DNA from: Lysobacteraceae bacterium
GTDB taxonomy: Bacteria > Pseudomonadota > Gammaproteobacteria > Xanthomonadales > Wenzhouxiangellaceae
NCBI GenBank assembly: GCA_020201235.1
Contig: JAIVHD010000256.1
Span: 3,935-17,967 of the forward strand
DNA length: 14,033 nucleotides
Reading direction: 5' to 3'
Shown here: one piece after another, positions 681-12,413 of the stretch
How the letters are laid out: every line of letters begins with the position of its first letter
Numbering within the stretch: position 1 is the first letter of the stretch
Position numbers and translations under genes: made by a program
The notes under the pieces: model-generated
Told to the model about the DNA's origin: nothing
The model's input: the letters and a program-made list of their open reading frames with translations, nothing else
Database searches by the model: none

Positions 681-1691
681 ATGAAATTACAGCAAATACG
701 TTTCCTGCTGGCGGTTGTCGAAAACGACCTCAACATCACCAGCGCCGCCGACGCGCTGTTTACCTCTCAGCCCGGTGTCAGCAAGCAGATTCGTCTGCTT
801 GAAGAAGAGCTGGGCCTCTCGCTTTTCGTTCGCAAGGGCAAGCGCATCGAATCCCTGACCAGCGCCGGGACAACGGTGGTTGAGCACGCTCTTCGCATTC
901 GAAACGAAGTTGAACAAATCAAGTCGCTGGCCGAAACGCTGCGTGGCGACGGTGCCGGCACCTTATCACTGGCGACTACACAAACCCAGGCCCGTTACGT
1001 GTTGCCAGACGTCATCGGCGAGTTCAGGCAGCGTTTCGAGCAAGTCGATATCGCACTTCATCAGGGTACCAGCGAACAGATTGCGCGAATGATGGACGAC
1101 CGCCAGATCGATTTCGCCATTGTCAGCGGATCGACCAAGCCTTTCCCCGACGTGATCGCCCTGCCCGTATACCAGTGGGACCGGGTCCTGATCGTGCCGC
1201 GCGACCATGCGCTGGCCACCTTGGGCGAACCGCCAAGTCTGACTGAGCTTGCCAGATGGCCGTTGGTGACCTATCTGTTCAGCGACCGCCCCGAATCATC
1301 GCTTATGAGCGCCTTCAACGCCGAGCAGCTGCAACCGCGTATCGCGTTCACCGCGCGAGACGCAGATATTATCAAAACCTACGTACGCACCGGCTTTGGA
1401 GTCGGCATCCTGGCCGGCATGGCGATCGAATCCGGGGTCGATGATGATCTGACCGTGATCGAGGTTCCGGGCCTGTTCCCCCGCCTTACGACCTGGATCG
1501 GCTTTCCACGGGACTTGCTGCTCAAGCACTACCATTGCGAATTCATTCGCCAACTGGCACCGCAGTACACCGAAGCAATGCTCGAAGACCTTTGCCGCAA
1601 TAGCCCGCCGCCGGACCTCGACGAATGGCTGGCCGAGATCGACGTGCCGCTTAGAAACCGCAGTGACACCGACCCAACAATGCCGCGCTGA
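681..1691 (+). CDS. cysB: CysB-type LysR transcriptional regulator
   Basis: This 336-residue protein is a LysR-type regulator of the CysB group, which activates sulfate assimilation genes with N-acetylserine or O-acetylserine as inducer and is antagonised by sulfide or thiosulfate. The winged helix-turn-helix fills residues 1-60 (TSAADALFTSQPGVSKQIRL is the recognition region). The ligand-binding part begins near residue 92. The stretch ATTQTQARYVLP, with Thr100 and Thr102, matches the sulfate/inducer-binding loop of enteric CysB, and FTARDADIIKTYVRTGFGVG is typical of the C-terminal half. The loop after PLVTY differs from the E. coli protein. The length fits the family (about 324), with a short extra tail. 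The ribosome binding site is weak. The gene ends 15 bases before the cysH stop codon, tail to tail with the operon it should control. Confidence 0.93.
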   Translation: MKLQQIRFLLAVVENDLNITSAADALFTSQPGVSKQIRLLEEELGLSLFVRKGKRIESLTSAGTTVVEHALRIRNEVEQIKSLAETLRGDGAGTLSLATTQTQARYVLPDVIGEFRQRFEQVDIALHQGTSEQIARMMDDRQIDFAIVSGSTKPFPDVIALPVYQWDRVLIVPRDHALATLGEPPSLTELARWPLVTYLFSDRPESSLMSAFNAEQLQPRIAFTARDADIIKTYVRTGFGVGILAGMAIESGVDDDLTVIEVPGLFPRLTTWIGFPRDLLLKHYHCEFIRQLAPQYTEAMLEDLCRNSPPPDLDEWLAEIDVPLRNRSDTDPTMPR

Positions 1692-1706
1692 TTGAAACGC
1701 CGGGGT

Positions 1707-2432
1707 TTACGAGCCGACCTGGTGTAATCCGCACTCGCGCGCCAGGCCGAAAAAGCGCAGCTGGTCGGTATCATCGCCAACTTCATGTACCGATCGAGTG
1801 GTGTGCCAGTCGCCGATGCTCAGATAGCCTTTTTCGCGCAACGGATGATAGGGAAGATCATGCCGGCTCAGGTACTGGTGCACATCACGATCGCCCCAGT
1901 CCGCGACTGGGTGAATCTTGTAGCATTGCCACTGGCGTTCAATGAAATGCACGCCCGCCCGGCTCGACGACTGGCCTCGGCGCAAACCACTGAACCAGGT
2001 TGAGGCACCGAGTTCGCGCAGTGCCCGCTGCATCGGCTCAACCTTGTTTTCATGGTTGTAGCTCTGGATTCCAGACAAACCCTGCTCCCAGCGCTTGCCG
2101 TGACGCGCCTCCTGCCAGGCCGGGCTGGTCGGGGAGCGAAAGACGTTCAGGTTCAATTTTAGCCGCTCGCTGAGCTGATCGACAAACCGGTAGGTTTCGG
2201 CAAAGTGATAGCCGGTGTCGATGAAAACGATCGGCATTTCCGGACGAACCTGGGTGACCAGATGCAGCATCAGCGCTGCCTGCATGCCGAAGCTTGAAGA
2301 CAGCACGGCAGTTTCGGGCAAATGCTCCAGCGCGCATTCGATACGCCGAGTCGGACTCAGCGATAACCAGCTGCGGTTGAGCACATCCAAATCAAGTACC
2401 TGTGCATCGGCGTGTAGCGTGCAAGTCGCCAT
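1707..2432 (-). CDS. cysH: Phosphoadenosine phosphosulfate (PAPS) reductase
   Basis: CysH (241 residues) reduces PAPS to sulfite and adenosine 3',5'-bisphosphate in the cytoplasm, using thioredoxin or glutaredoxin. The PP-loop SSSFG is at residues 45-49 and IDTGYHFAETY at 71-81. WFSGLRRGQSSSRA is at 146-159. The C-terminal ARECGLH carries the catalytic cysteine (Cys234), as in E. coli KRECGLH. The two cysteine pairs that hold the iron-sulfur cluster of APS reductases are absent, so the substrate should be PAPS rather than APS. The length is close to E. coli CysH (244). The start codon shares one base with the cysI stop (TAATG), so translation is probably coupled. It is the last gene of cysJIH. 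Confidence 0.95.
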   Translation of the reverse strand: MATCTLHADAQVLDLDVLNRSWLSLSPTRRIECALEHLPETAVLSSSFGMQAALMLHLVTQVRPEMPIVFIDTGYHFAETYRFVDQLSERLKLNLNVFRSPTSPAWQEARHGKRWEQGLSGIQSYNHENKVEPMQRALRELGASTWFSGLRRGQSSSRAGVHFIERQWQCYKIHPVADWGDRDVHQYLSRHDLPYHPLREKGYLSIGDWHTTRSVHEVGDDTDQLRFFGLARECGLHQVGS

Positions 2433-3952
2433 TATGCGTGTACCTCGCTGCCATGCACGACCGCCGCGACCAGCCCGGAACGCACCGCAAAGTCACCCAA
2501 AGCCTCGTCGGGCTGGCGTTCAGCCGCATAGCGTTCAAACCAGCCGTCGATTGAATCCAGAATAGCCGCTTCATCGGCATTATCAAGCACCAGCTTGCTC
2601 AGCCGTTCGCCGCTGAAGGCCGCGCCCAGATACAAGTTGTAGCGGCCCGGCGCACGCCCAACCAGACCGATTTCGCCCAGGAACGGCCGCGAGCAGCCAT
2701 TCGGACAACCGCTCATGCGCACCATGACGGGCTGCTCGGAAATGCCGTGGCGGGCGGCCAGTTCCTCGATACGGGAAATCAGGTCGGGCAGGTAGCGCTC
2801 GGCCTCGGCCATGGCAAGGCCGCAGGTTGGCATTGCGACACAGGCCATCGAGTGGCGCCGAATGGGCGAGATATCCGCACCATCTTCGAGCCTTTCAATG
2901 AACACAACAAACTGCCAGCGCCCGTCGACTCCTTTGGTCCAGCCATAGCGATCGCTGCTTTGGATGAGTTCGAACGGCTCCGCAGCACTCGGACGAATGC
3001 CGCATCGATGCTCGATCTCGTCGACCAGCCAGTCGGCGCTGCGATCGTCAAGGGTGTATTTAAAACGAGCGTGCTTGCGGTTTTCACGATCGCCAAAATC
3101 ACGCTGTGTGGTGACAATCGCCTCGGCGACCGGCAGCAGCTGCTCAGGCGTAATGAATCCAATCATCTGGCCCAACAGCGGGAAGGTCTCGAGCTCACCG
3201 TGGGAGCAACCCATTCCGCCGCCGGCAATCACATTGAAGCCGGCCAGCGCGCCGTCGCGCGCGATCGCCACCAGGCCGATATCCTGAGAATAAACGTCGA
3301 CATCATTGTAAGGTGCCACCGCAATGCCGATCTTGAACTTGCGCGGCAGATAGCGTTTGCCGTAAATGGGCTCGTCCTCGAGCTCTTCGGTGTCGGCTTT
3401 TTTGCCGTCGATCCAGATTTCGCGCCAGGCGTTTGTGGCCGGGGTCAGGTGCTTGCTCAAACGCTCCGACCAGCGCAGCGTCTCGGCATGAAGCGGTCCG
3501 AGCTCGGGCTGTACATGGCACATCACGTTGCGGTTGACATCGCCGCATGCGGCCAGCGAGTCCATGCCGACGGCATCAATTCCGCGGATCAGGTCATGCA
3601 GCGATTGGCGCGCTACGCCATGGTATTGAATCGCCTGACGGGTCGTCAGGCGCAGGCTGCCGTTGCCGGGGTCGTCAGCCAGGCGGTCGAGCGCATCCCA
3701 TTGCGCACGCGTCACCCGGCCACCGGGCACCCGAACACGCAACATAAAGGAATACAAAGGCTCCAGCCGCGCTTCGCGCCGGGATGCGCGCAGGTCGCGA
3801 TCATCCTGCTGGTATAGGCCGTGAAACTTGCTGACCACGGTATCGGCTTCCCGAATCGCCCCGGTGGTCGGGTCATTCAGGCTCTCGATCAGCGTGCCGC
3901 GCAGGTTGCGGCTTTCGGACTTGATTTTTTCGATATCCAATCCCGCGCTCAT
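2432..3952 (-). CDS. cysI: Sulfite reductase hemoprotein subunit with a large internal deletion
   Basis: CysI carries siroheme and a 4Fe-4S cluster and reduces sulfite to sulfide with electrons from CysJ. The N-terminal half is well conserved (FHGLYQQDDRD near 44-54, LRLTTRQAIQYHG near 100-112, YLPRKFK with the substrate lysines at 205 and 207). The cluster cysteines are present: CVAMPTC (371, 377) and CPNGC (416, 420). I chose the ATG at 3952, which overlaps the cysJ stop as TGATG, has AAAGGA about nine bases upstream, and is better than the TTG one codon earlier. The protein has 506 residues against 570 in E. coli. About 50 residues are missing between VVFIERLEDG and SPIRRHSMAC, around base 2875, which removes most of the second ferredoxin-like half-domain. 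The frame stays open, so the gene is not obviously dead, but enzyme activity is doubtful. Confidence 0.9.
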   Translation of the reverse strand: MSAGLDIEKIKSESRNLRGTLIESLNDPTTGAIREADTVVSKFHGLYQQDDRDLRASRREARLEPLYSFMLRVRVPGGRVTRAQWDALDRLADDPGNGSLRLTTRQAIQYHGVARQSLHDLIRGIDAVGMDSLAACGDVNRNVMCHVQPELGPLHAETLRWSERLSKHLTPATNAWREIWIDGKKADTEELEDEPIYGKRYLPRKFKIGIAVAPYNDVDVYSQDIGLVAIARDGALAGFNVIAGGGMGCSHGELETFPLLGQMIGFITPEQLLPVAEAIVTTQRDFGDRENRKHARFKYTLDDRSADWLVDEIEHRCGIRPSAAEPFELIQSSDRYGWTKGVDGRWQFVVFIERLEDGADISPIRRHSMACVAMPTCGLAMAEAERYLPDLISRIEELAARHGISEQPVMVRMSGCPNGCSRPFLGEIGLVGRAPGRYNLYLGAAFSGERLSKLVLDNADEAAILDSIDGWFERYAAERQPDEALGDFAVRSGLVAAVVHGSEVHA

Positions 3953-5733
3953 CAATACACATCCTTTTGATAGCGTTTGTCGGTCTTCATCGTTTCCAGA
4001 TAGGCCTCGGCGCGCCCGGCATCCAGACCAGCGTGTTCAGCCACGACTTCGGCCAGCGCCTGGTGAACATCGACCGCCATGGCCTGGCCATCGCCGCACA
4101 CGTAGACATGCGCACCACGCTCAAGCCAATCGAACAGCTCGCGGCCCTGCTCGCGAATCCGCTGCTGCACATAAATCTTGTTTTCCTGATCGCGCGAAAA
4201 TGCGACCGAAAGTCGATCCAGCCCACCCTGGCGGCAATAGCGCTGCCATTCGATCTGGTAGAGAAAATCGGTGCTGCGGTTACGGGCACCAAAAAACAGC
4301 CAGTTCTCGCCGCTGCCGCCGAGCGCCCGGCGTTGTTGGATAAACGCCCGGAACGGCGCCACGCCGGTGCCAGGACCGATCATGATGATGGGCCGCGACG
4401 GATCCTCGGGCAGGCGAAAACGCGGATTCGATTCGATGTAGACCGGCACCCGCTGGCCCGGCTGGACGGTCTCGGTCAGCTGCCAGGAGGCCACCCCTGC
4501 GCGCAGTTGCTGTCGGGCATTCAGCCCGCCGACTCGCTTGACCGTAAGGTGGACCTCGTCTTCGTACTCCAGCGGGCTGGAGGCAATCGAATACAGGCGC
4601 GGTGCGATTCCGCGAAGCGCGTTGACGAAACGTTCTCCATCGACCTCGGCCGGATATTCGCGCAGTACGTCGATGACCTGGTGGCCGGCAACCCAACGGC
4701 TCAGCGCATCGCGATTATCGAGAATCGCGCGCAGCTCGGAATTGCGGCTCAAATCGCACCAGGCATCCAGAAACGGGCGCGCCAGCTGGGTCAGTTCGAG
4801 GCGGCCACCCAGCCAATCCGAAACGCTGAGGCTCTCGCCCTTGCGGGCGACGACCGCATCGCCGTCGAGCTTGCAGACTGCGATGATTTCATCGACCAGC
4901 CGGGCATCGTTGCGTGGCCAGATCCCGACCGAATCACCGGGTTGCCACTGCAGCGTACTGTCTTCCAGCAGCAATTCGACATGATGCACCGGACTGGTCG
5001 AGGGCGACACCGTCAGCGGTGCGATTTCCAGAACCTCGGCCTGATAGGGATTGCGGCGATCGAAGCGCTGGGCACCGGGCGTGCCCTGTACCAGCTGCAG
5101 GTGCGGAGTCGCGGCGCCGCCGGTTTGCAGAACTTCGCCCACCTTTTCCAGCACCCGATTGCGCCACTGGTCTTCGGCCGGCTCGAAGTCGACATCGACA
5201 TCGACCCGGTCTAGCAATCGCGTAGCACCCAATTGATCCAGCCGCGCATCGAAGTCGCGGCCGGTCTGGCAGAAATCGGGATAGCTGGAATCGCCAAGCG
5301 CAAATACCGCGTAGCGAAGGCTGTCCAGGCGCGGCGCGCGCTCGGACTGGATCAGCTTGTGCAGCGCCTCGGCATCTTCCGGCGGATCACCCTCGCCGTG
5401 CGTGCTCATCACCAGCAACAGCACGCTGACCTTGGCGATTGAGCGCGGCTGGATATCGGCGCTGCTTGCGAGCTCGACCGTGTATCCATGCGAGCGCGCC
5501 TCAGCCGCCAAACGTTCGGCAACGCCACGTCCGTTGCCGGTCTCGGAGCCGTACCAGATCGTCAGAGTCTCGCTGGTCGCGGAAGCGGCTGCGGTCGTAA
5601 CTGCGCCGCCACGGGCCGACGCGGCACCGGCAAGGTATCCCGAAGCCCAGACCAGCTCCTTGTCGTTCAACGATCGCGAAAGCGGCTCAAGCTGCGCTTC
5701 GAGATTCTGTTTTTCAGCCGCCGACAGATCCAT
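3952..5733 (-). CDS. cysJ: NADPH-sulfite reductase flavoprotein subunit
   Basis: CysJ (593 residues; E. coli 599) takes electrons from NADPH through FAD and FMN and passes them to CysI. An FMN-binding flavodoxin domain spans about 57-200 (YGSETGNGRG at 61-70, MSTHGEGDPPEDAE, ALGDSSYPDFC). The FAD domain follows, with RLYSIASSP at 379-387 and RAGVASWQL at 411-419. The NADPH part contains GPGTGVAPFRAFIQQR at 453-468 and YVCGDGQAMAVDVHQAL at 544-560. The C-terminus KRYQKDVY matches the family ending, so the protein looks intact. GAGG lies ten bases before the ATG. It is the first gene of cysJIH and overlaps the start of cysI. Confidence 0.95.
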   Translation of the reverse strand: MDLSAAEKQNLEAQLEPLSRSLNDKELVWASGYLAGAASARGGAVTTAAASATSETLTIWYGSETGNGRGVAERLAAEARSHGYTVELASSADIQPRSIAKVSVLLLVMSTHGEGDPPEDAEALHKLIQSERAPRLDSLRYAVFALGDSSYPDFCQTGRDFDARLDQLGATRLLDRVDVDVDFEPAEDQWRNRVLEKVGEVLQTGGAATPHLQLVQGTPGAQRFDRRNPYQAEVLEIAPLTVSPSTSPVHHVELLLEDSTLQWQPGDSVGIWPRNDARLVDEIIAVCKLDGDAVVARKGESLSVSDWLGGRLELTQLARPFLDAWCDLSRNSELRAILDNRDALSRWVAGHQVIDVLREYPAEVDGERFVNALRGIAPRLYSIASSPLEYEDEVHLTVKRVGGLNARQQLRAGVASWQLTETVQPGQRVPVYIESNPRFRLPEDPSRPIIMIGPGTGVAPFRAFIQQRRALGGSGENWLFFGARNRSTDFLYQIEWQRYCRQGGLDRLSVAFSRDQENKIYVQQRIREQGRELFDWLERGAHVYVCGDGQAMAVDVHQALAEVVAEHAGLDAGRAEAYLETMKTDKRYQKDVY

Positions 5734-5906: not shown

Positions 5907-6823
5907 TCAGCCGGGCGAATTGCGAATGACGCGCCGGCAACGCCAGAGCAGGTAATTGACCGCGATCCAAAAGCGCTTAAACGCCGGATTACGAGTCTGG
6001 TGCTTGTGGTATCGGTAATAGATCTGTTGCGCGATGACGGCCAGACGGAACAGCCCATAGACCTCGTAAAACGCCCAGTTGGTGGCCGAGTAGCCCATCC
6101 GTCCGCAGTAATACTCAACGACTTCGGCACGCCTGAACATGCCGGGAAGATGCGTTGGCTGGCGGCGGAAGTTCTTGAAATAGCGATCATCGTCGGCCTC
6201 TACCCAATAGAGGTACGGGCCTTTCGGAGGCGCTCCGACCAGCCCGTGATCTGGCGCCGGTTATAGCCCGCACCCTTTGCCAACCCGGCCAGACCGGCGG
6301 CATTGACATCGACCGAATGCAATTCGATCAGCGTATCAATTGCGTTGCGACACAGTGTGCGCGCCTGGTTCTCATCCAGCACCAGCCCCTTCGGCAGGTT
6401 GGCGCGCGGAATGATACCCTCCAGCCGCTGCATGACATAGAAGTCCGAGCCGATCACCGAATGGTCCTCGCACACCGCCAGCATTTCCGGAACATACGGA
6501 AAGACAGGCTTCAACGCGCTCTGGATGCGAAATTCGCGTACCACGTCGTGCGCCGACCGGGCCTTGGTACCGGACGGCGGCCGGCGCAGGATCAAGTCGC
6601 GCCCGGGATAGCGCAGCCGATAGGTCAGGTTTGACGCGCCTTTCGGAAACTGCTCAAGCTCCGGCAAGCCGTGCAGTCCGCCAATCCGCTTTTTAAGCCA
6701 GGCATCCAGCGCGAGCAGCTCGAACCGGTCCTCGTCGCGAACCGCACGCGGCTGATCGATCAACCCAGGCGCCGAGGGGCTCGCCTGATCTGAATCGTCT
6801 GAACCATCTGGATCGCCTGCCAT
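5907..6823 (-). pseudogene. Broken APH-family phosphotransferase (ACAD10/11 kinase-like)
   Basis: Two pieces of one kinase-like gene lie in different frames. The first, from the ATG at 6823 (GAGG eight bases upstream; better than the ATG at 6877), has the nucleotide-binding strand FPKGASNLTYRLRYPGRD, LRRPPSGTKARSAHD and FYVMQRLEG, and runs to GWSERLRKART before a stop at 6200-6202. The second frame takes up at YWVEADDDRYF and FRRQPTHLPGM and continues through VEYYCGRMGYSATNWAFYEV and GLFRLAVIAQQIYYRYH to the stop at 5907. In intact relatives some 60-70 residues lie between these points and hold the catalytic HND loop and the DWE/DPL metal-binding motif. Neither motif is present here, so a deletion of about 200 bases plus a frame change has removed the active site. 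The family phosphorylates small molecules; the ACAD10/11 and LvaA branch acts on 4-hydroxyacyl-CoA. Assembly error is an alternative explanation. Confidence 0.85.
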
Positions 6824-6872
6824 CCTGAATACCTCGCTCGTTTTCGACAAATGATCGACACCAGCCGACCGC

Positions 6873-6905
6873 TCCACGTGGACACTTCAAGCCCGATTCT
6901 ATCGG
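6873..6905. promoter_or_regulatory. Two palindromes upstream of the phosphotransferase gene
   Basis: A perfect ten-base palindrome TCCACGTGGA (6873-6882) lies about 50 bases before the preferred start at 6823. A second one, CCGAT-TCT-ATCGG (6893-6905), lies 10 bases further upstream. Their place between the response regulator gene and the phosphotransferase start fits operators of a local repressor, but no such repressor is encoded in the window. The second could also form a small hairpin. Neither is followed by a T-run in the minus direction, so a terminator is unlikely. Confidence 0.3.
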
Positions 6906-6983: not shown

Positions 6984-8396
6984 TCAATCGCCTGCCCCGG
7001 GCCTGCCCTTTTCGGAATCTTCGGCAGCGACGTCCAGCCAACGGTAAAGGGTGCGTCGGCCGACGCCCAGAAGTGCCGCAGCCCGACGCTTGTTGCCGCC
7101 GGTGCGCTGCAGCACGTACTGCACGTAACGCGCGCGCAGCTCGTCAAGGGTCAGCAGCATGTCCTGGTCGAGCAATTCCGACGGCAAGCCGGCCGTCATG
7201 GGGGCCGGGGGCTTGTGGGCTGCCTTTCGAATCCTGGCCGGCAGGTCCCGGGCAGAAACGACTTCGCTCCGGCAGAAGGTCACGGCACGCTCCATCGCGT
7301 TGCTCAGTTCCCGAACATTGCCCGGCCAGTCGTGGCTTTCGAGACATTCCAGCGCGGCCGGATCGAGGCGGCGCGAGGAGCAATCGTTGGCGGCGGCGAA
7401 CTTAAGCAGAAAATGCTGGGCCAGCAGCCCGATGTCGTCGCCGCGCTGCGACAGCGGCGGCACCTCGAGATGGAAGGTCTCGAGCCGATAGAACAGATCC
7501 TTACGAAACGAACCCTCGGCAACACAGCGGCAAAGATCCTGGTTCGATGCGGCGATGACGCGCACATCAACCTGGATCTCGCGTTCGGTACCGACCGGCC
7601 GGATGTGGCCGTCTTGCAGCGCACGCAGCAGTCGGGCCTGCAGTTTCAGGGGCATTTCGCTGACTTCATCGAGAAACAACGTGCCGTTGTCGGCTTCGCG
7701 AAACAGGCCCGGTCGAGCGCGATCGGCACCGGTGAAGGCACCCGCGACGTGACCGAAAAATTCGCTTTCGAGCAAATCCGAAGGCACAGCCGCGCAGTTG
7801 ACAATCAGGAATGGTTTCTCCGATCGCCGGCTTTCCTGGTGCAAGGCGCGCGCGACTCCTTCCTTGCCGACGCCTGACGGACCGCTGATCAGGACCGGGC
7901 CGTCTGCCCGCGCTACGCGCACAAGCACATCGAACAACTCCCGCATGGCTTTACTGCGGCCGATCATGCCGTGGAAGTCGGATGTCTCCTTCAGGGCCCG
8001 ATAACCTTCCAGTTCGTCACGCACCCGGCGATATTCGAACAGCCGTCTGCAACTGATCAGCAGATGTTCAATATCCAGCGGCTTAGTCAGGAAGTGATCA
8101 GCGCCGGCCTTGAGCGCCTCGACCGCGCGCTCGACGGTACCGAAGGCCGTGATCATCAGCACCGCAGGCGGTCGCGGACGCTGCATCAGCTCTCGCAAAA
8201 GCGCCATGCCGTCGGCCTTGGGCAGTTGCAGATCCGTCACGACCAGGTCGGGCTGGAAGGCATCGAACCTTTCGCTAGCGGCCTCGGCCGAGCGCCCAGT
8301 CGCGACGGTCCAACCATCGGCCGTCAGCTCTTCGGCCAGCATCTCATTTAACGTTGCGTCGTCCTCGACCACCAGCACACGCGGCTTACGATTCAT
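6984..8396 (-). CDS. Sigma-54-dependent response regulator (NtrC/ZraR family)
   Basis: This 470-residue protein is a cytoplasmic transcription activator. The receiver domain (5-115) has the acidic pocket EDD (11-13), phospho-acceptor Asp55, Thr83 and Lys105. The AAA+ domain (about 142-380) has Walker A GPSGVGKE (172-179), the sigma-54 contact loop GAFTGA (219-224), Walker B TLFLDE (239-244) and LFYRLETFHLEVPPL (301-315). A Fis-type helix-turn-helix closes the protein (NKRRAAALLGVGRRTLYRWL, 435-454). It therefore opens sigma-54 promoters when phosphorylated. Its ATG overlaps the kinase stop codon by four bases (ATGA), so the two are a cognate pair. A likely target is the -24/-12 promoter before the neighbouring DUF4168 gene. 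Which named regulator it equals cannot be decided from sequence alone. Confidence 0.93.
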   Translation of the reverse strand: MNRKPRVLVVEDDATLNEMLAEELTADGWTVATGRSAEAASERFDAFQPDLVVTDLQLPKADGMALLRELMQRPRPPAVLMITAFGTVERAVEALKAGADHFLTKPLDIEHLLISCRRLFEYRRVRDELEGYRALKETSDFHGMIGRSKAMRELFDVLVRVARADGPVLISGPSGVGKEGVARALHQESRRSEKPFLIVNCAAVPSDLLESEFFGHVAGAFTGADRARPGLFREADNGTLFLDEVSEMPLKLQARLLRALQDGHIRPVGTEREIQVDVRVIAASNQDLCRCVAEGSFRKDLFYRLETFHLEVPPLSQRGDDIGLLAQHFLLKFAAANDCSSRRLDPAALECLESHDWPGNVRELSNAMERAVTFCRSEVVSARDLPARIRKAAHKPPAPMTAGLPSELLDQDMLLTLDELRARYVQYVLQRTGGNKRRAAALLGVGRRTLYRWLDVAAEDSEKGRPGAGD

Positions 8397-9865
8397 TCGA
8401 TATCCTCGGCCAGTGGCAGGCGCATTTCGAAACGGCCACCAGTGAGGTTCCGTCCAGCCGATACGGTAACGCTGCCGCCGTGCAGCTCGGCGACGGTGCG
8501 CACGATGGTCAGGCCCAGGCCGGTGCCCTGGCCGGATTCGCGCCGGCTTTCAAACGGCGCAAAGATTTCTTTCCGACGCTCGACGGCCACGCCGGGCCCA
8601 TCGTCTTCGACCACGATCACGGCCATATCCTGCCCGGTACTAAGGCTCATTTGCACGCGACTCTCCGCAGCTTGGATCGCGTTGCGCAACAGATTGAGGA
8701 CCGCATGCTCGACGCGGATGGCGAATCCGGTGCTCGCGAGACTGCGGGACTCTGTGTATTCGAGCGCGATGCCCCGGCTTTCCGCCTCAGGGGTTGCGCC
8801 GCGTGCGGCGCGCGCCAGGACCGCGCCCAGATCGAAGCGCCGGGCTTCGGCGGATTTCTCACGGACCAGGCCCATCAATTGCTCGATCAACTGCCGGGTG
8901 CGTTCGAGCTGCTCGCGGATGCGTTTAAGCCTGCGCCGGCCCTCTTTGTCGGCAATGCTTTGCTGCAGTCTTCGGACATCAGCCTGGATGACCGTCAACG
9001 GCGCTCCGAGCTCGTGCGCGACCCCGGCCGAGAATCGTCCCAGCGCCGCTTCGGCTTCTTGCTGCTGAATACGCTGGTTTAGACGCTGCTGATCGATACG
9101 GTGACGCGCGACCTCGGCCACGGCGCGCTCGAGCGCGTCCAGCATATTATTCAGCCCCCCGGCCAACTGGGCCAGTTCGAGCGGCGCGCCGATTTCTGCA
9201 CGCCAGTCGCGATCGCCACGCTCGACCCGCCGCATGTCGGCAAGCAAGCGCTGCACCGGCCTCATCAGCGCCATGCGGTGTCCAACCAGCATCACCCCAA
9301 GGATCAGAATCAGGACACCCAGCAAAAACAGGCTTCCGATCCGGCGAATCCGTTCCAGACGAAGCTTGATTTCGCTTTCTTCGCGAACCACCTGCAGCAG
9401 GCCGTCGATGCGACCCAGTGTTGGCGACAGCGGCACGAAATAGGAATAAACGGCCTGACCGGCAAAATTCGCATATTCGCCGTGCTCCTCGCCGAGCGCA
9501 ACCAGCTCGGCGGCCTGGAGCTGCTCTGCGGCACCGGGCCGACCTTCACCGGCCACGGCCACCCTGCGGCCTTCGGCATTGTAAACGGCCGCACCGTAGA
9601 CCCGACCAATCTCGGCCACCGCACCCAGCGCATCGCGCAGACGCTCGGGATCAGCCTCACGCAGCGCGCCCTCCACCGGCATTCGCAACGAGCGCGCGAC
9701 CAACTCGATTTCTTTTTGCAAACGGTTTTCAACCAGGCTTTCCACATTCGCAAACGTAGTCCAGACCAGCGCCGTGGTCAAAACAGCGACCGGCAACAGA
9801 ACATAGACAATCAGTTGTATGCGAAGGCTTTTCAATTGCATTGCATGGAATAACTCATGCGCCAT
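8393..9865 (-). CDS. Membrane sensor histidine kinase, partner of the sigma-54 regulator
   Basis: This 490-residue inner-membrane kinase has a first transmembrane helix at about 16-36, a periplasmic sensor segment (about 37-175) with no cysteines and no recognisable metal-binding cluster, and a second helix at about 177-196. A HAMP-like linker follows (198-250), then a coiled stretch. The phospho-acceptor is His284 in HELGAPL, a variant of the common HEINNPL. The ATPase domain shows the N box LLRNAIQAA (392-400), G1 DDGPGV (421-426) and G2 GTGLGL (447-452). No ribosome binding site is clear at the ATG at 9865, and the ATG at 9841 (MQLKSLRIQL) is a possible alternative start. It is translated together with the response regulator and is divergent from the DUF4168 gene. 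The layout is ZraS-like; the signal sensed is unknown. Confidence 0.92.
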   Translation of the reverse strand: MAHELFHAMQLKSLRIQLIVYVLLPVAVLTTALVWTTFANVESLVENRLQKEIELVARSLRMPVEGALREADPERLRDALGAVAEIGRVYGAAVYNAEGRRVAVAGEGRPGAAEQLQAAELVALGEEHGEYANFAGQAVYSYFVPLSPTLGRIDGLLQVVREESEIKLRLERIRRIGSLFLLGVLILILGVMLVGHRMALMRPVQRLLADMRRVERGDRDWRAEIGAPLELAQLAGGLNNMLDALERAVAEVARHRIDQQRLNQRIQQQEAEAALGRFSAGVAHELGAPLTVIQADVRRLQQSIADKEGRRRLKRIREQLERTRQLIEQLMGLVREKSAEARRFDLGAVLARAARGATPEAESRGIALEYTESRSLASTGFAIRVEHAVLNLLRNAIQAAESRVQMSLSTGQDMAVIVVEDDGPGVAVERRKEIFAPFESRRESGQGTGLGLTIVRTVAELHGGSVTVSAGRNLTGGRFEMRLPLAEDIE

Positions 9866-9937
9866 TATGACACATCAAGCGCGAAGCCCCGCGTTCGGCA
9901 GATTGCCAAGTCATTGATTTCTGGATTCAACTACTTT

Positions 9938-9953
9938 TGGCTCTGATCTTGCA
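9938..9953 (+). promoter_or_regulatory. Sigma-54 (-24/-12) promoter of the DUF4168 gene
   Basis: TGGCTCT, four bases, then TTGCA fits the sigma-54 consensus TGGCACG-N4-TTGCW with exact spacing. The invariant GG (9939-9940) and GC (9951-9952) fall at -24 and -12. Transcription would start near 9964 and give a leader of about 39 bases to the ATG at 10003. The promoter faces away from a sigma-54-activator operon that begins only 73 bases to the left. A small inverted repeat GGCA-GAT-TGCC (9897-9907) lies upstream and could be an activator half-site, though it is close to the promoter for an enhancer. Confidence 0.72.
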
Positions 9954-10002
9954 AGTACCGGCTTGTACGACGATCAAACTCACACATGAAAGAGGAAACA
10001 GC

Positions 10003-10377
10003 ATGAAAATCTTCAACTTGAAACTCGTTCATTTAACGCTCGCATCGATTTTCGCTGCATCCATGGCGCTTTCGGGCGCAAGCGTCGCGCAACAGGCACC
10101 GGAGCAGCCGCAAGCGGCCACCCATGTCAGCGAAGCCGACCTCGAACGTTTCGCCGTCGCGCGCGAGTCCATCGTCTCGATACAGGAAGACTACTCGGCC
10201 CGCCTGCAGGGCGCTGGCGATCCCGAAGAGGCTGGCAAGCTGCAACAGCAAGCCAATGAAGAAATGATTGGCGCAGTCGACCAAGCCGGGCTGGATGTCG
10301 AATCGTTCAATGCGATCGCGATGGCCTTGCAGGGTAATCCTGAATTGCAGCAGAAGCTGGAACAAGTCGCACCCTGA
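10003..10377 (+). CDS. Small exported DUF4168-domain protein
   Basis: The product has 124 residues. The start at 10003 is fixed by GAGGAA six bases before the ATG and by the signal peptide that follows. The longer frame from 9937 would begin inside the promoter. Residues 1-29 form a signal peptide (LTLASIFAASMALSGASVA) with likely cleavage before QQ at 30. The mature part is charged, without cysteine or transmembrane segments, and mostly helical. The pattern of ERFAVARESIVSIQEDY followed by a helix ending in NPELQQKLEQ matches the DUF4168 family of bacterial periplasmic proteins of unknown function. A sigma-54 promoter precedes it and a strong terminator follows it, so it is a single-gene unit divergent from the kinase-regulator pair. 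By position it could be the output or the feedback regulator of that system; this is inference. Confidence 0.82.
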   Translation: MKIFNLKLVHLTLASIFAASMALSGASVAQQAPEQPQAATHVSEADLERFAVARESIVSIQEDYSARLQGAGDPEEAGKLQQQANEEMIGAVDQAGLDVESFNAIAMALQGNPELQQKLEQVAP

Positions 10378-10437
10378 AGCATGCGCAGTGAGCAACGCCG
10401 TCATTTGAAGGCGAGCGCGAAATCTCTCAACCCAAAA

Positions 10438-10465
10438 GACACCGGGCAACCGGTGTCTTTTTTTT
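10438..10465 (+). terminator. Rho-independent terminator after the DUF4168 gene
   Basis: A perfect eight-base-pair stem GACACCGG / CCGGTGTC with a GCAA loop (10438-10457) is followed by eight T (10458-10465). Four A precede the stem (10434-10437), so it could also terminate minus-strand transcripts of the acyl-CoA dehydrogenase gene, which ends at 10484 in the opposite direction. It is the strongest terminator in the window. Confidence 0.93.
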
Positions 10466-11855: not shown

Positions 11856-12413
11856 TTACAGCGGGCTGTAGGAAAACTTCTGGCCCCCGACCGAGGCTTC
11901 TGCCATCAAGCCGCCCTTCGCCATCATGAACACGGCGACGCCTTTTTCGTAGCTGGTGGTCGAGGCCGTGCCGGCGGTCACGGCAACGGCGGTGGCCTGG
12001 GCGGAGAATTCATAGTTGCCGCGCTGGAAGGTTCGCAAGGCTGCGTCGTCCTGGAAAAAAATGACCTGGGCAAAATTCTGCGCGCCGATCTGCGCCCCAA
12101 AAGTCGCCTGAACAATGCTGGTACGACCGACCGGCTCGCCGCGCTCGAATACGATTCCGCGTCCGTATGAGCCACCCACTCCGAAGCCACCCTTGCCAAC
12201 GCTCGGGAACACAGCGTAGCCATAGGCATGGTCGACCCAATCTCTGAGGCCCGGATCACGGTCAAGAAAGCGCACAATCGATGCTCGCGAATCGGCGATC
12301 AGCACGCTGTTGGACGGCGCCGAGGCACACGCCGCCAATGCGACCACCATCAGCCCCGCAAGAATGATTTTAGGCAAAAGAAGGCGAAAACAATTTGTTG
12401 GAAACTGACGCAT
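11856..12413 (-). CDS. SYLF (YSC84/DUF500) domain lipoprotein
   Basis: This 185-residue protein begins with a lipoprotein signal: basic N-terminus, hydrophobic stretch IILAGLMVVALAAC and lipobox LAAC with Cys29. The residue after the cysteine is Ala, so outer-membrane sorting by Lol is expected. The rest is a SYLF domain, a lipid-binding fold: HAYGYAVFPSVGKGGFGVGG (62-81), then GRGIVFERGEPVG, TFGAQIGAQNFAQVIFF and a C-terminal EASVGGQKFSYSPL. Length and layout match common proteobacterial YSC84-related lipoproteins, whose role is not established. AAGGA eight bases before the ATG supports the start. It lies 99 bases downstream of the ABC transporter gene on the same strand and may be cotranscribed or use its own promoter. 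Confidence 0.88.
   Translation of the reverse strand: MRQFPTNCFRLLLPKIILAGLMVVALAACASAPSNSVLIADSRASIVRFLDRDPGLRDWVDHAYGYAVFPSVGKGGFGVGGSYGRGIVFERGEPVGRTSIVQATFGAQIGAQNFAQVIFFQDDAALRTFQRGNYEFSAQATAVAVTAGTASTTSYEKGVAVFMMAKGGLMAEASVGGQKFSYSPL

Follow-up and report, generated by a model that had tools for sequence, protein, structure and literature searches.

A DUF4168 protein as the predicted main output of a sigma-54-dependent kinase-regulator pair wired like ZraPSR in Wenzhouxiangellaceae

Introduction

An enhancer dyad, an IHF-type site (for integration host factor), a -24/-12 promoter and an adjacent gene for the sigma-54 activator constitute standard control by regulators of the NtrC family. 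The ZraPSR system of Escherichia coli has such an activator, and its small exported protein is encoded divergently from a pair formed by a histidine kinase (HK) and a response regulator (RR). CpxP and the comparable Spy, which has a helical fold, are also small periplasmic proteins, but CpxR is not a sigma-54 activator. Here we analyze a 14,033-nt stretch of contig JAIVHD010000256.1 from a Wenzhouxiangellaceae gammaproteobacterium (assembly GCA_020201235.1), hereafter called the window, in which an HK-RR pair lies divergent from a gene for an exported protein of DUF4168 (PF13767), a domain family of unknown function. Our results make it highly probable that kinase and regulator form with the DUF4168 gene a three-gene signalling unit, in which the latter would be the main output in this lineage.

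ZraR is presented as acting on one target, the zraP/zraSR spacer, and further targets are credited to another study (PMC8249747), whereas its direct targets have elsewhere been given as zraP, zraSR and mgtA (PMC7657598); the narrow target range is a feature that the locus examined here appears to share. ZraP is considered an accessory protein of the Zra pathway (PMC8249747) and, like CpxP, a negative regulator of the envelope kinase system CpxAR, is reported to bind and damp its kinase (PMC10848872). In the Zra2 system of Vibrio cholerae (VC_1314-1316), a Zra-like kinase adjoins a small gene dissimilar to zraP and cpxP, its own RR (158 aa) is likened to CpxR and DUF4168 goes unmentioned in the sections available (PMC10848872). 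Layouts with unrelated small proteins are therefore already known.

Results

The minus strand of the window contains the genes for the RR (6984-8396, 470 aa) and the HK (8393-9841, 482 aa, with a frame open to 9865), which share the ATGA of the HK stop and RR start at 8393-8396. On the plus strand, the DUF4168 gene (10003-10377, 124 aa) lies behind a sigma-54 promoter, TGGCTCTGATCTTGCA at 9938-9953(+), which scores 21 of 23 on a weighted consensus (TGGCACGNNNNTTGCW, with our own weights). The original prediction had rightly recognized both the four-base overlap of kinase and activator and the divergent position of a small signal-peptide protein behind a promoter of this type. Two additional elements occupy the spacer, neither assigned to a strand: a putative activator-binding dyad or upstream activating sequence, TGCGCCATTATGACACA (17 bp, 9858-9874), which agrees with TGYGYCA-N3-TGRCRCA at 14 of 14 positions, and an IHF-type site, CAAGTCATTGATT at 9907-9919, which matches at nine of nine positions the IHF consensus YAANNNNTTGATW, used for all scores of this kind. 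The most likely start of the DUF4168 gene is ATG 10003, because TTG 9937 sits upstream of the promoter. That of the HK is most likely 9841 (MQLKSLRIQ), since the listed start at 9865 falls within the dyad; many aligned orthologues have M at the position matching 9841, and the longer reading is broken by a stop in two genomes (G023 and G033). The dyad would thus precede the likely start of the kinase by 17 nt.

These control elements are strongly conserved in the family of the window (f1, 37 genomes, the named loci being mostly from Wenzhouxiangella), in which several genomes are incomplete so that some absences may be gaps. Among 30 DUF4168 loci fetched, 28 have a sigma-54-like site scoring at least 18; three were left out of the 27 counted, namely L026 (which belongs to another family and misses the GG at -24) and L025 and L030 (promoter absent from the scan, L030 starting inside the gene). 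The -24/-12 sites in front of DUF4168 genes, whose counting had been proposed, score 19 or more at 26 of these 27 genes versus 68 of 1520 control open reading frames (ORFs), chosen mechanically with any DUF4168 and kinase genes left in; the -12 element is imperfect in two of the 27 (L012 and L029). All 27 have a dyad with 13 or 14 of 14 matches placed 62-65 nt upstream of the -24 element, including three additional copies that lack an adjacent kinase, L003 in G017, L028 in G034 and L012 in G011. The dyad consensus was written after aligning the family upstreams and then viewing those class-level upstreams whose promoter scored at least 19. An IHF-type site of at least eight of nine matches is present in 22 of the 27 upstreams, versus 3.7% of mononucleotide shuffles. 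No kinase-facing sigma-54 site of 19.5 or more was found in the same upstreams (about 170 nt each), the top score being 17.5, and sigma-54 autoregulation of the HK-RR operon was dropped on this ground.

The distribution of the genes follows the same pattern. DUF4168 occurs in 25 of the 37 family genomes and an HK of at least 50% identity also in 25: both are present in 24 and neither in 11, while one genome (G009) has DUF4168 alone and, in another (G029), the contig ends by the HK and its adjoining dyad, so that the DUF4168 side would lie beyond it. G011 also contains a weak third DUF4168 match, and G025 a DUF4168 fragment at a contig edge. A lack of conservation of the pairing in relatives had been named beforehand as a refuting outcome; on the contrary, the two genes are divergent neighbours in all 24 genomes with both. 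In the genus of the window, three genomes (G001, G002 and G003) lack both genes, as well as any RR match, and have an acyl-CoA dehydrogenase gene adjoining an APH-fold phosphotransferase gene with 130-390 nt between the matched parts; in G000, G004 and G005 these two genes flank the trio. Given this site with and without the trio, the genes for RR, HK and DUF4168 have, by genome comparison, been acquired or lost together. We rejected a missing rpoN as the explanation for the absence of the module, because this gene is present in 10 of the 11 family genomes that lack both DUF4168 and HK.

DUF4168 is also found outside the family: of 369 class genomes 35 have it, and of 398 phylum genomes 40 (38 above cut-off), each figure including the window's own. 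With the best four candidates per genome scored, full-length HK orthologues (E 1e-53 or better) occur in at least 13 of 369 class and at least 14 of 398 phylum genomes, again with the window's own in each. At least 23 distinct genomes besides that of the window therefore have a full-length HK (at least 12 class and 13 phylum), and DUF4168 is present in 23 of 23. Six class genomes that match the kinase half only (E 7e-31 to 1e-33) are without DUF4168. In 15 of the 23, no more than 5 kb separate the pair from DUF4168, and both divergent and colinear (HK-RR-DUF4168) layouts occur.

A preset test was then applied to 91 places from the class and phylum lists plus L102, of which 17 are kinase-linked and 74 unlinked, leaving out the window's own row, phylum-list duplicates of class rows and second same-frame matches in G709, G439 and G697. 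Sigma-54 scores of 19 or more precede 15 of the 17 linked genes, 14 of the 74 unlinked genes and 68 of the 1520 control ORFs, and the combination of promoter and dyad (at least 11 of 14) precedes 12/17, 1/74 and 7/1520, respectively, with at most 0.2% in dinucleotide shuffles. Five linked loci of phylum level, unseen when the consensus was written, have best dyads of 13, 12, 11, 11 and 10. We consider it very improbable that another sigma-54 activator drives DUF4168 while the adjoining HK-RR pair is coincidental, for promoter and dyad together follow the pair (12/17 versus 1/74) and the pair comes and goes jointly with the DUF4168 gene, even if some unlinked DUF4168 genes, for example in three f96 genomes, have sigma-54-like sites without dyad.

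Two other observations concern DUF4168 genes in different settings. At L145 (G078), an RR orthologue with dyad and promoter is divergent from DUF4168 without an adjoining kinase gene, and its receiver N-terminus looks atypical. Family f96 has DUF4168 genes (L163, L164, L166, L167 and L171) whose sigma-54-like sites are good but which have no dyad; some of them lie near a different kinase, and on sequence grounds another activator may serve them. Regarding the ancestry of the linked genes, a tree built from 93 short domains leaves a single origin of their clade undecided (15 label changes, with starred branches forcing at least four).

The proteins themselves show how the module compares with known systems. 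The RR has the composition of an NtrC-family sigma-54 activator, with receiver, sigma-54 AAA+ and Fis-type helix-turn-helix domains in Pfam (PF00072, PF00158, PF25601 and PF02954) and, in its translation, the GAFTGA motif of the AAA+ domain of such activators. The HK, as read from Pfam, an alignment of 17 orthologues and a structure model (mean pLDDT 76, pTM 0.41), combines a periplasmic sensor with HAMP, HisKA and HATPase_c domains; the modelled sensor is probably a small alpha/beta domain, and the Pfam score for CHASE8 in it stays under the cut-off. The small protein matches PF13767 with 59.4 bits (gathering cut-off 25.8) and has, in alignments, a Sec-type signal peptide with a conserved A-Q after the hydrophobic stretch; its mature domain is helical in the model (mean pLDDT 82.7, pTM 0.65) and acidic as read from the translation. 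No His or Cys position of the DUF4168 alignment reaches 90% conservation, which makes zinc binding, a zinc response and a zinc-dependent mechanism like that of ZraP unlikely.

The module had been predicted to be ZraPSR-like, and this holds for its layout and for the divergent sigma-54 promoter facing a small protein, but not for kinship. The RR reaches 360.3 bits with the curated ZraR model (cut-off 760) and the HK 102.5 bits with that of ZraS (cut-off 479), in the kinase part only; BLASTP between HK and ZraS likewise gives a credible match in the kinase core alone (29% over 236 columns), the sensor halves being unalignable. The DUF4168 protein has no Pfam match to Metal_resist (PF13801), to which E. 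coli ZraP scores 82 bits, nor to the LTXXQ domain, unlike CpxP and Spy, and profile comparison with ZraP by hhalign gives a probability of 0.7%. The closest curated models are those of AtoSC and NtrBC, systems that have other targets, and all their scores are below cut-off (RR versus AtoC 425.5 bits and versus NtrC 401 bits, HK versus AtoS 131.7 bits). That the module is ZraPSR proper, its ZraP diverged past recognition, has thus hardly any likelihood: AtoC is the better match for the RR, and no strong kinase-facing site accompanies the dyad placed directly before the kinase start, whereas ZraR is reported to control zraSR too (PMC7657598, PMC8249747). By the features tested, then, the module is not a member of ZraPSR, though it is wired likewise.

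A hairpin resembling an intrinsic terminator (12-pair stem followed by a T run) lies 3' of the DUF4168 gene at 10434-10461(+); its support is modest, as shuffles yield 1.0 such sites on average. The APH-fold phosphotransferase gene adjoining the module (5907-6877, minus strand) is interrupted, in pieces over two reading frames, which may reflect either a pseudogene or a fault in the assembly; the gap between its matched parts is smaller than in L064, L074 and L312-L314. Positions 681-5733 contain an ordinary sulfate assimilation cluster, named by domain as LysR regulator, PAPS reductase and sulfite reductase haemoprotein and flavoprotein, and 11856-12413(-) encodes a Ysc84-domain protein with a lipoprotein-like N-terminus. 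The assembly comprises 2.89 Mb in 439 contigs, is 83% complete and has rpoN.

Discussion

The conserved dyad and sigma-54 promoter, the strict co-occurrence of the genes, their joint gain or loss and the presence of one exact dyad in the window's assembly, at the DUF4168/HK locus, together indicate that DUF4168 is very likely the main direct target of the pair here, as originally proposed, and perhaps the only one in the window's genome. A slightly different exact pattern was searched in 61 relatives and produced 37 matches, against 11 for the reversed control: in the 25 genomes with the kinase, 25 of 28 matches lie at DUF4168 or HK starts and three elsewhere, and the 36 other relatives have nine. 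A composite of half-dyad and promoter gave 53 matches in the 61 genomes, 38 of them in the family, versus six for its reversed control, and was abandoned as a finder of the regulon because it is too loose.

Several observations weigh against this reading of the locus. Of the 17 linked loci, the preset window shows no promoter at two and no dyad of at least 11 at another three; these misses are L138, L139, L148, one of the two L153 copies and L284, and a post hoc search by hand found candidate sites at L138, L139 and L148 that were kept out of the counts. Most sampled DUF4168 genes are unlinked, 74 of 92 places outside the family having no adjoining HK-RR pair, and one family genome (G036, 73% complete) has the module yet no rpoN match. 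In the window's assembly there are four one-mismatch dyads elsewhere and 111 sites with up to two mismatches versus 57 for the reversed pattern, so weaker targets are possible, and only 21 of the 38 family matches of the looser composite are at DUF4168. Moreover, neither a solved relative nor a confident match in the fold searches gives the DUF4168 protein a function.

Additional counterevidence comes from f182, probably the Halomonadaceae, as the tree places Salinicola with it. In this family lie all eight of the 23 HK genomes in which the kinase does not adjoin DUF4168; the latter is about 10-19 kb away on the same contig in five and elsewhere in three (G330, G758 and G712), and its upstreams are without a -24/-12 site (sigma-54 scores of 16 or less). 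In those three genomes (L337, L330 and L331, respectively) the pair and an acyltransferase-like gene are convergent; the latter is identified in G330 as Acyl_transf_3 (73 bits) and likened to it by N-terminus in the other two. Upstream of it stand a sigma-54 site (score 21.0) and a dyad (12-13 of 14). The pair thus seems to drive this gene in the three genomes, and its output can differ. The same ten stretches contain three more, weaker promoter-dyad pairs, of which one precedes a lipoprotein-like gene and the other two precede none. Separately, at L328, L334 and L335 of f182 a small acidic lipoprotein-like gene lies near the pair, with promoter matches that are weak at most.

Such data could also be accommodated by a general envelope regulator with several outputs, of which DUF4168 would be merely the neighbour that is easiest to see. 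The acyltransferase-like genes, the weak sites before small acidic lipoprotein-like genes in other genomes and the one-mismatch dyads point in that direction, and the exact dyad pattern is strict, so that weak sites could escape it. We nevertheless regard this alternative as unlikely, given the single exact dyad in the window's genome and the three of 28 elsewhere in the 25 kinase genomes.

With DUF4168 taken as the main output, the HK would sense an envelope signal and, judging from its domains, phosphorylate the RR, which would bind the dyad at 9858-9874, a cis element recognized by comparison. A bend of the DNA at the IHF-type site could then carry the RR to the sigma-54 polymerase at 9938-9953 and switch on the DUF4168 gene, which is probably transcribed on its own. 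The exported, mostly helical product would work in the periplasm, most likely in an envelope-protecting or accessory role. With the dyad 17 nt before the kinase start and no strong kinase-facing sigma-54 site, the bound RR may also restrain its own operon.

By analogy with ZraP and CpxP (PMC10848872), the DUF4168 protein might in addition bind the periplasmic domain of the kinase and damp it, a feedback that we entertain as a tentative possibility. It is consistent with the presence of DUF4168 in all 23 further genomes with a full-length kinase, even where the genes are not neighbours, with the narrow wiring of the pair to DUF4168 and with the resemblance to the zraP/zraSR layout, in which ZraP is the accessory protein of the pathway (PMC8249747). 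However, a plain output gene would co-occur equally, and DUF4168 is without the conserved His or Cys residues. More speculative, and in our opinion doubtful, is the broader scenario of an independently evolved Zra-like feedback circuit, in which DUF4168 would bind the kinase periplasmic domain and kinase, dyad and promoter would be an exchangeable cassette serving genes of envelope maintenance, re-used for the acyltransferase in Halomonadaceae.

Searches of the open-licence literature, with supplements and subscription journals outside their scope, found no paper for DUF4168 or PF13767, nor anything linking Wenzhouxiangella with sigma-54 or ZraP with the combination of sigma54, divergent and DUF. 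The role that had been envisaged for the DUF4168 family would extend to its kinase-linked members and not family-wide, because 74 of the 92 places outside the family are unlinked and promoter plus dyad precede one of the 74 unlinked genes tested. A portion of this uncharacterized family gains a specific regulator, a predicted binding site and a promoter. Our results further suggest that the zraP type of layout, with a small exported protein as the principal product of a sigma-54-dependent kinase pair, arose repeatedly from unrelated proteins, and that such pairs can exchange their output gene.

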